Shown here: one piece after another, positions 36,352 through 46,177 of the stretch
How the letters are laid out: every line of letters starts with the position of its first letter
How positions within the stretch are numbered: the first letter of the stretch is position 1
From: Lachnospiraceae bacterium
Lineage (GTDB): Bacteria > Bacillota > Clostridia > Lachnospirales > Lachnospiraceae
Direction: 5' to 3'
Length of the DNA: 46,177 nucleotides
Assembly: GCA_017405805.1 (NCBI GenBank)
Contig: JAFQZU010000040.1
Coordinates: 1-46,177 of the forward strand
The notes under the pieces: generated by a model
What the model saw: only the letters and a program-made list of their open reading frames with translations
What the model was told of the DNA's origin: nothing
Database searches by the model: none
Made by a program: the position numbers and the translations under genes

Positions 36352-37554
36352 TCAGGCCTGTCTCTTGAACAGCTTTGCCAGCGCCTCTTCGTCCAGTTTT
36401 GCCCCGATCACGCAGATCTTGCCCGTGACATCGGGCGCGCCGGTGCGCACCTCGGTCTCCTCGGGAACATAGTCGAAATGGATCCACGTGCCCTCGGGCG
36501 TGGGCAGCATGCCCTTGGAGCGAAGCACCATGCCGTACTTTTCGGAATCGTCGAGTGCCGCCAGGATGCCGCGGATCTCTTCCTCCGTATACTTGCCGGG
36601 CGTCTCCATGCCCCAGCTCCCGAAGACCTCGTCCGCGTCATGGCCGTGATGGTGATGATGGTGGTGCTGGTGGTCATGGGAATGATAGACCGTGTTGCCC
36701 TCTTCGTCCACCTCAGGCTCCGCGTGCTCGTCGTGGTCGTGATGATGATGGTGCTCGTGCTCCTCCTCATCTTCGTCATGATCATGGTGATGATGGTGAT
36801 GCTCGTGCTCCTCCTCATCCTCGTCATGATCATGGTGATGATGGTGATGCTCGTGCTCCTCCTCATCCTCGTCATGATCATGGTGATGATGGTGATGCTC
36901 GTGCTCCTCCTCGTCTGGCTCGTTCATGGCCTCCTCGAGCATCTGCTTCTGCAGGTCGGACGTACCCTCGATGGTATCCAGGATCTGCTTTCCGTCGAGC
37001 TCCGCGATGGGCGTTGTGATGATGGTCGCCTTCTCGTTGTAGCCGCGCAGGATCTCCACGCACTCCTCGATCCTGGCGTCGCTGATCTTATCGGTCCTGC
37101 TCAGCACGATGGTGCCGGCATAGGAGATCTGGTTGACAAAGAACTCGCCAAAATTCTTGATATACATCTTGCACTTGGAAGCATCCACGACCGCCACGGC
37201 GCTGTACAGCTCCATCTGGGAGCCTTCCGCCGCGTCGTTGATGGCCTTCATGACGTCGGAGAGCTTGCCGACGCCGGAGGGCTCGATCAGGATGCGCTCG
37301 GGCTGATAGGTGTTCATGACTTCCCGCAGGGAAGTGCCGAAATCGCCCACCAGGGAGCAGCAGATGCAGCCGGAATTCATCTCACGGATCTCGATCCCGG
37401 ATTCCTTGAGGAAACCGCCGTCGATGCCGATCTCGCCGAATTCATTCTCGATCAGGACAACCTTTGTCCCGGCCAGAGCGTCCTTCAGGAGCTTTTTGAT
37501 CAATGTTGTCTTGCCCGCTCCGAGAAATCCGGAGACAATATCTATTTTCGTCAT
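36352..37554 (-). CDS. G3E/CobW metal-chaperone GTPase with histidine-rich repeats
   Basis: The 400-residue protein has P-loop GFLGAGKTT (9-17), the metal-binding CxCC motif CICC (61-64), ERILIEPSG, and a C-terminal CobW domain (about 310-400). Between them lies a low-complexity region (213-303) with about 40 histidines, including four copies of the unit EEEHEHHHHHHDHDED. G3E GTPases deliver Zn, Co or Ni to client proteins; the histidines likely store or buffer metal. The ATG at 37554 has AGAGG at 6-base spacing. Closest in type to ZNG1/YeiR/YjiA; the client is unknown. Confidence 0.92.
   Translation of the reverse strand: MTKIDIVSGFLGAGKTTLIKKLLKDALAGTKVVLIENEFGEIGIDGGFLKESGIEIREMNSGCICCSLVGDFGTSLREVMNTYQPERILIEPSGVGKLSDVMKAINDAAEGSQMELYSAVAVVDASKCKMYIKNFGEFFVNQISYAGTIVLSRTDKISDARIEECVEILRGYNEKATIITTPIAELDGKQILDTIEGTSDLQKQMLEEAMNEPDEEEHEHHHHHHDHDEDEEEHEHHHHHHDHDEDEEEHEHHHHHHDHDEDEEEHEHHHHHDHDEHAEPEVDEEGNTVYHSHDHQHHHHHHHGHDADEVFGSWGMETPGKYTEEEIRGILAALDDSEKYGMVLRSKGMLPTPEGTWIHFDYVPEETEVRTGAPDVTGKICVIGAKLDEEALAKLFKRQA
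36730..36918 (-). repeat. 48-bp in-frame tandem repeats (His-rich)
   Basis: Three full 48-bp units and one 45-bp unit, each coding for EEEHEHHHHHHDHDED or a version one residue shorter. The units are almost identical at DNA level, which implies recent expansion by slippage or unequal exchange. Confidence 0.9.
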
Positions 37555-45655: not shown

Positions 45656-45705
45656 ATCTCATATTAAATTGTGCCGCTTTGATACTCTGAGATCGACAGC
45701 GACAG

Positions 45706-45779
45706 TGGAACCGACGAGGCTCGAACTCGTGACCTCTCGCGTGTGAGGCGAACGCTCATCCCAGCTGAGCTACGGTTCC
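45706..45779 (-). tRNA. tRNA-Val (anticodon CAC)
   Basis: A 74-nt tRNA nearly identical to its neighbour in acceptor and D arms, with anticodon loop CTCACAC (anticodon CAC, reading GUG) and stems changed in compensatory fashion. CCA is not encoded. It is first in the unit, 50 bases before tRNA-Val(GAC). Confidence 0.95.
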
Positions 45780-45821: not shown

Positions 45822-45850
45822 AGTGTATTACATCCTTTCTGAAATGTCAA
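45822..45850 (-). promoter_or_regulatory. tRNA-Val promoter
   Basis: Minus strand: perfect TTGACA (45850-45845), 17-bp spacer, TACACT (45827-45822). The hairpin repeat array begins 3 bases upstream of the -35 box. Confidence 0.8.
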
Positions 45851-45852
45851 GC

Positions 45853-46051
45853 GATTAGTTGAAGGCATTTTCTGCTATTTTTTTGGCTTTTTTGGGGCTT
45901 AGCTGAGGTGGGGCTCTGCTATCATTCTTGATTCCTTGGGATTAGCTGAGGGGCTTTGCTATTTCTTTAGTTCCCTTGAGGCTTAGCTGAGGATGGACTC
46001 TGCTACTATTCTAGATTCCTTAGGGATTAGCTGAGAGCTTCTGCTAAAAAT
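45853..46051. repeat. degenerate ~43-bp hairpin repeats
   Basis: Five units start at 45853, 45897, 45940, 45981 and 46025 (spacing 44, 43, 41, 44). Each has the core TTAGCTGAG...CTCTGCTA, which folds as TAGC-T-GAG paired with CTC-T-GCTA around a T/T mismatch. Units begin alternately GATT and GCTT, which suggests an 85-bp double unit. A weaker copy (TAGCAAG...CTGCTAAA) lies near 46129, and another begins at 46167 at the window end. The remainder to 46177 is A+T rich, with no gene seen. The period is not a multiple of three. Confidence 0.8.
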
Positions 46052-46177
46052 CAAAAAATATCGGGACACTTCAAGTCACCAGAAGCGAAATCTACTAATA
46101 AGAAACATGAAATCAAGATATATAGCAAGTTAAGATTCTGCTAAACCTCCACTAAGATAATCTATCTAGCTGAGTCC

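Follow-up and report, generated by a model that had tools for sequence, protein, structure and literature searches.

The hairpin array at the end of the window (by which we mean the whole 46,177-nucleotide stretch of DNA analysed, equal to contig C18 of a 2.05 Mb draft genome, G000, in 40 contigs, 84% complete and 1% contaminated) is well supported as the expanded 5' end of a composite, non-coding repeat of about 300 bp that is dispersed in one genome. Eight places in the draft carry the repeat: those of the full-length copies, of which there are four (C33, C16b, C17 and C19), two half copies (C16a, which ends after hairpin II, and C4, a 3' half without the front), one fragment, and the truncated copy of the window, C18, which continues into the contig end at 46177. 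Besides C18, the colinear copies occupy intergenic places on five contigs. What appears locally to be an odd array of hairpins is thus the visible end of a larger element, which is seen only with the rest of the genome.

The array consists of five units of the form TAGY-T-GAR..YTY-T-GCTA, spanning 45856-46046 on the + strand (Table 1). The original prediction had described such a hairpin array from the letters of this stretch, and it is real, in that each of the five units fits the pattern; the GAA/TTC and TAGT/GCTA pairings ascribed to unit 1 are present, and unit 3 retains its pairing through G-T as proposed. The array is detected independently by TRF (45892-46035, period 44, score 143), and when both strands of the window are searched for 19-23 nt hairpins of the TAGY..GCTA form in which all seven pairs are made, the five units of the array are returned and nothing elsewhere. 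The T/T mismatch that had been singled out as conserved occurs in 5/5 window units and in 8/8 units of alignment A3, but it is confined to the TAGCTGAG modules; hairpin II carries TAGCA and is paired at the corresponding position. Likewise, the alternation of GATT and GCTT starts holds in all five units, while the double unit suggested on that basis is only partly borne out: the likeness is 84% between units 2 and 4, but 68% between units 1 and 3, also two apart, and 60%, 76% and 70% between neighbouring units. The unit 5 hairpin is 69% like unit 3 and 71% like unit 4, so it is no closer to unit 3. One terminator-like site falls within the array (45932-45953, + strand), with 0.8 expected in the region from shuffled sequence.

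Table 1. Positions in the window of the truncated element copy, its parts and the adjoining tRNA gene.
Feature	Position	Strand
tRNA-Val (cac), neighbour	45705..45779	-
Promoter-like site of tRNA-Val(cac), TTGACA-17-TACACT; abuts unit 1, not part of the element	45822..45850	-
Full extent of C18, the truncated copy of the ~300-bp dispersed element; front module expanded to five units	45853..46177	+
Hairpin unit 1, 22 nt, TAGT-T-GAA..TTC-T-GCTA, followed by T7	45856..45877	+
Hairpin unit 2, 22 nt, first half of dimer 1	45900..45921	+
Hairpin unit 3, 19 nt, second half of dimer 1	45943..45961	+
Hairpin unit 4, 22 nt, first half of dimer 2	45984..46005	+
Hairpin unit 5, 19 nt, second half of dimer 2; aligned with the innermost 5' unit of other copies	46028..46046	+
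AT-rich linker of the element; CTACTAATA (46092-46100) where other copies have the CTACGGATA box	46047..46122	+
Hairpin II of the element (TAGCA..TCTGCTA), sixth hairpin of the window	46123..46143	+
Start of a further left word (TAGCTGAGTCC); copy cut by the contig end	46167..46177	+

A covariance model built from genomic copies had been named as a check on the array, and a model of eight units (R1) searched against the genome yielded a second and a third place (C33 and C16). Pairwise local comparison of the surroundings indicates that similarity between the loci extends far past the hairpins. Among C18, C33, C16a and C16b, four of the six same-strand pairs score above all 200 dinucleotide shuffles: C33/C16b with 100 (shuffle maximum 43), C18/C33 with 64 (41), C33/C16a with 52 (35) and C16a/C16b with 45 (33). 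The score of 50 for C18/C16b is reached by one of the 200 shuffles, and C18/C16a taken alone is not significant (28/200). The C18/C16b pair also beats all shuffles in reverse orientation (score 51), because the element is partly self-complementary.

The 3' half copy on C4 was revealed by a profile run over 402 kb of the genome. Two sequence-only profiles, R2 for the 5' half (from C18, C33, C16a and C16b) and R3 for the 3' half (from C33, C16b and C4), overlap by about 26 nt around hairpin II, were both built without C17 and C19, and were used to search 40 genomes. Both matched C17 and C19, adjoining and in order (R2 E 6.2e-10 and 2.4e-8, R3 E 1.6e-14 and 2.6e-9, respectively), and R3 also found the fragment at C19:18933-19019 (E 4.5e-6). 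Leave-one-out profiles recover C33 at E 1.6e-29, C16b at 3.4e-8, C17 at 2.6e-27 and C19 at 1.6e-21; at E 0.05 they match nothing in 400 kb of DNA taken from four same-genus genomes. The full-length profile built without the window copy detects that copy at E 3.5e-4, and with one full copy omitted as well the values range from 2.9e-5 to 0.019; C18 is a member of the family, yet the most diverged of the copies that have a 5' end. A weak candidate at about 30182-30256 of C16 (- strand; R2 E 0.217, and 0.0022 and 0.04 in two of the four leave-one-out runs) was not counted; a third leave-one-out run matched the + strand there at E 0.0077.

Near the end of contig C4 (L082 15738-15796), 160 bases past the half copy, a frame with the start MGRKASVITLSDEDRSYLE opens and extends beyond the contig end. 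Its start may resemble those of IS630-type transposases; if so, the frame would be relevant to the truncation of C4 or to the movement of the family.

The copies are held together by short words at nearly constant distances. Counted from the inner TCTGCTA (0), the words are TCTGCTA at -41, TAGC at -12, TAGCA at +82, TCTGCTA at +96, TGGCA at +125, TRGCA at +179, ACTGCTA at +204 and CTGCTA at +233 and +244. This spacing agrees within 1 nt in C33, C16b and C17, and C19 has the same layout with one 1-nt deletion and some altered words; wherever hairpins adjoin, the window units included, a right word and the left word that follows it start 28-30 nt apart. The four full copies are 40-56% identical when aligned without gaps, compared with an average of 26-27% and a maximum of 0.34 in shifted registers, and across 300 columns the spacing of the words TCTGCTA/TAGCA/TGGCA is preserved. 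Invariant columns in runs of five or more add up to 18 bases, a value reached by none of 1000 column-order shuffles. Helical phasing of the words is weak (p ~0.04, unadjusted and dependent on the assumed pitch). Word pairs stand in the same orientation at both ends of the element, and the ends are not sharp.

The front module is the part that varies in number, with five units in the window and one or two in C33, C16b, C17, C19 and C16a. In C33 the front units are a 23-nt and a 19-nt hairpin, and the window hairpins of 22, 22, 19, 22 and 19 nt can be read as two such dimers (units 2+3 and units 4+5, about 85 bp) and an additional unit. Tandem duplication of the dimer would be the simplest account of the growth of the front. 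The copies C17, C19 and C16a have different left arms before the inner TCTGCTA. The C17 and C19 arm (TATCYGTA; TATCTGTAG, TTATCCGTA) is complementary to CTGCAGATA and TACGGATAA about 60 nt downstream (L162 2942-3013, L163 2695-2767), with one G-T included in C17, and an alternative pairing of arm and box is possible.

The element is AT-rich, with 37-46% G+C in the copies and 56-60% around them. A coding origin was rejected: words on the minus strand look conserved in six-frame reading, but stops interrupt each of the six frames in each of three full copies (C33, C16b and C17). Conservation by codon position is 0.43-0.53 in every frame, with a mean BLOSUM score of 0.36-0.85.

The original prediction took compensatory changes between the arms as evidence of selection on structure. 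This part did not hold up: the covariation is not significant, each measure being attained in 190 of 500 shuffles. Over the five window units and the two of the second locus, all seven pairs are kept (49/49 cells), but four of them are invariant, two vary on one side, and the remaining one has a single two-sided change, in one of the seven units; the eighth unit (C16b), once added, breaks one pair. Single units fold modestly, and the fold energy of the 197-nt array is ordinary relative to shuffles (z 0.48 on the + strand and -0.10 on the - strand). Constraint beyond chance and inverted pairing are nonetheless supported, though not through covariation.

We weighed whether the element is a multi-copy structured non-coding RNA or UTR element whose hairpins are selected as RNA structure, as had been held before; we consider this unlikely, and an RNA role in general is possible but less well supported. 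The consensus fold of the four full copies lies far below that of column shuffles on both strands (z -9.5 and -8.7, reached by 0/200 in each case), with the reservation that these values are inflated because the column shuffle disrupts conserved, inverted words; the two strands, moreover, fold about equally, which counts against this reading. In hairpin II, two-sided changes affect 5 of the 11 pairs (16/500 shuffles reach that), and the stems of C17 and C19, by reading, are perfect over 10-11 bp and differ in sequence, but the covariation score of hairpin II is exceeded in three of six slid registers. In hairpin III one pair has a two-sided change (234/500 shuffles), so that covariation is significant neither there nor in hairpin I. 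The one-sided changes of the array all retain G-T on the + strand (4/4 cells), a point in favour of RNA; on the other hand, the left arm of hairpin I is altered in C17, C19 and C16a, and C33 lies behind a terminator-like stem with T7 (read by eye). Rfam gave no match to the array over the gathering threshold, and at E up to 1-3, over the array together with C33, C16a, C16b, C17, C19 and C4, all matches were outside the element apart from a sub-threshold one to the snoRNA family snoU85 on C33 (E 0.41, 12.7 bits against a cut-off of 41). Structure on either strand is plausible, not proved.

What is conserved is the words and their spacing: 33 of 50 word positions are invariant in all four full copies, compared with 38 of 250 others, a contrast that is descriptive because the words were chosen after the alignment was seen. 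This points to recognition of sequence rather than to pairing alone, and invariant words with free spacers fit sequence-specific recognition better than structure. The reading we favour, and consider fairly probable, is that of a BOX- or MITE-like repeat, dispersed and species-specific, with inverted pairs of words that are recognised through their sequence, the mechanism being deduced indirectly.

The same figures bear on whether the copies are a selfish repeat in decay that no longer has a function, having begun as an old tandem array that was copied around and is now mutating. The positions at unrelated genes, the truncated C4 and C16a, the fragment on C19 and the varying number of units speak for this. 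Free decay, however, would affect words and spacers alike, and the words (chosen, again, after alignment) are far more conserved than the spacers and nearly constant in spacing even though full copies are only about half identical, which makes this account distinctly improbable.

The genomic setting of the copies is varied. Among nine neighbouring proteins scanned, no Pfam family is common between copies (for C16a, the frame scanned is the one it shares with C16b): C17 lies by RecD2 and DUF3048, C19 by an alpha-amylase, C4 by VanZ, and C33 by LUD and a choline-binding protein with a metallo-beta-lactamase domain, while the two frames next to C16b have no Pfam match. Converging frames flank C33, C16b and C17. 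A replication-strand bias was rejected; with all copies read on the + strand of their own contigs, C18, C16a, C16b and C4 are on negative GC skew and C33, C17 and C19 on positive.

In the window the array adjoins two tRNA genes, with HD/dgt behind them, and the -35 hexamer of tRNA-Val(cac) lies only 5 bases from the start of unit 1, an arrangement that might suggest the array regulates tRNA-Val, for instance as an upstream promoter element. The other copies sit by the RecD2/DUF3048, amylase, VanZ, LUD and other genes, and ARAGORN finds no tRNA in stretches of 2.8-10 kb around C33, C16a, C16b, C17, C19 and C4. Furthermore, a tRNA-Val gene is present in the stretch examined at 22 of 29 same-genus dgt loci, yet R1, with candidates scored in part, gives no convincing copy in 36 same-genus genomes. 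We see no tie between the element and tRNA-Val, and the regulatory role is very improbable.

Type III antitoxin RNAs have repeats of about 35-45 nt, and the repeat length and tandem arrangement of the array are reminiscent of these, in a copy that stops at a contig end. No small toxin-like gene was seen behind C33, C16b, C17 or C19 by open frames and a Pfam scan, and there is no Rfam match. We give this identification practically no credence.

As far as searched, the element appears to be confined to one species. R1 gives weak matches in 9 of 24 genomes of other families (best E 0.005), and R2 and R3 give no convincing copy in 24 same-genus genomes; over the other 39 genomes their best E-values are 0.0027 and 0.0074 in other families and 0.037 and 0.066 within the genus. 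The absence from relatives is incomplete, since first-look candidates were partly scored in many of these genomes (e.g., 82/348) and weak copies may be missed. By blastn, the C33 copy has no match among 72,556 records of plasmids and 50,697 of phages, collections that may leave out the records of this genome, and an earlier exact pattern gave 0 matches in the genome-contig collection. Stretches found with a two-unit pattern (8 from genome contigs, 3 from viral contigs) were read as coding or unrelated repeat DNA, none of it element-like. A fixed-spacing pattern returned 20 viral stretches, about the number due to chance by rough estimate, and the one R3 match among them (E 0.014 over 57 positions) was taken as chance.

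The best R1 match in another family is in a genome of the same order (G031), which contains nine palindromes TAGCTGAA..TTCAGCTA (on L045, L055 and L059) compared with 0 in a reversed-pattern control. We treat these as look-alikes whose relationship is not shown, as they are without the T/T mismatch and are matched by R2 and R3 at 0.175 and 0.0966 at best. Those that were read have GGTGGAA/TTCCACC and GGCTGAA/TTCAGCC companions nearby. Two matches to the Y1 transposase family PF01797 occur in the same genome, and within 1.5 kb on each side of them are single words and no such palindrome.

Small mobile sequences of the MITE type measure about 100-300 bp, a size that the element shares. In common with MITEs and the ERIC, RUP and Correia repeats (PMC2229807), the element is AT-rich, non-coding, dispersed and base-paired. 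The BOX repeat of Streptococcus pneumoniae is arranged as boxA-boxB(n)-boxC with a variable number of internal boxB modules, and a link to insertion sequences has been proposed for it (PMC3049150). Our element is like BOX in having a variable-number tandem module (five units versus one or two) within a composite repeat of fixed sequence, in its hairpins, in its spread within one lineage and in the presence of several repeat families per genome (PMC3049150). It is unlike BOX, which is compared here by description, in that the variable module is at the 5' end and the copies are few (8 places) and strongly diverged. REPs are described as short imperfect palindromes, regularly spaced, intergenic and often species-specific, with protein-binding sites reported, and the first four of these traits are shared by our element and by REPs and BIMEs (PMC2817692, PMC3733652). 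The units of the array, however, are all in one orientation and do not alternate, and there are eight places rather than over 100. The REP tag is an unpaired GTAG or CGTC; here GTAG overlaps the first stem base in 2/2 C33 units, and the window units have GTAG in 0/5 and TTAG in 5/5. In contrast to REP/BIME systems with RAYT, no Y1 (RAYT-type) transposase gene (PF01797, the only transposase family searched) is found in the G000 draft, which is 84% complete. An intergenic location and a common predicted fold are also features of bacterial stem-loop repeat families, surveyed over 40 genomes, the likeness being one of description (PMC2267715). By analogy, the element would stand closest to composite small repeats such as pneumococcal BOX and to MITEs and REPs, and we do not assign it to any of them. 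A literature search found no publication on the element, which does not in itself establish that it is absent from print.

The family may have been dispersed as a BOX- or MITE-like mobile element that was non-autonomous and depended on some enzyme acting in trans, after which the front module would have grown by tandem duplication, probably of the dimer of a 22-nt and a 19-nt hairpin. The words would then persist because a transposase or a host DNA-binding protein recognises the inverted pairs, either in the duplex or as extruded hairpins. We infer past mobility of the element and protein binding of its words from the pattern of copies and conserved positions.

A more far-reaching proposal, which we advance tentatively and regard as doubtful, is that the element is a lineage-specific platform for multi-site recognition. 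Each of its dispersed intergenic copies would present ten short words, arranged as inverted pairs and exactly spaced along ~290 bp, to which a dedicated protein would bind cooperatively. Such binding would serve to organise the chromosome or to control mobility, and amplification of the front dimer would have raised the occupancy of one site. Diverged copies that keep words and spacing amount to a natural mutagenesis experiment on the bases that a recognition system needs. If a binding protein is found, the family would represent a new dispersed multi-site recognition system; otherwise it would be one more small mobile repeat family.

Several other repeats were seen in the course of this work. 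A second, unrelated hairpin array with an 80-bp period and a 160-bp higher order, GTGGTCACAG..CTGTGACCAC, lies at 1046-1422 of the window between lexA-like and rsfS-like genes (named by reading); contigs C10, C26 and C33 begin with further copies, and it recurs in the interior of C26, while among the 61 genomes searched the pattern occurs only in G000. The window also contains a 48-bp repeat at 36739-36912, within a long open frame, with 3.6 copies at 97%. Tandem arrays of 47-48 bp are present elsewhere in G000 at L083 302-440 and L097 17861-17980, both with GCCGTATATA..GTAYCCTTGGGC, and only that of L083 is outside long frames as masked here. A 21-bp tandem repeat, TAGGTCTGGCTGCTAGCTGAG, is present at no fewer than two chromosomal places in Saprospira grandis DSM 2844 (L072, L074), where the pattern match is apparently due to chance. 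A same-genus genome (G061, L116 12910-13095) has an intergenic array of three hairpins, GTGCACAAAT, GTGGACAAAT and GTGCACAAAT, with 3' arms GTGCAC, GTCCAC and GTGCAC, so that the middle hairpin is changed on both sides.
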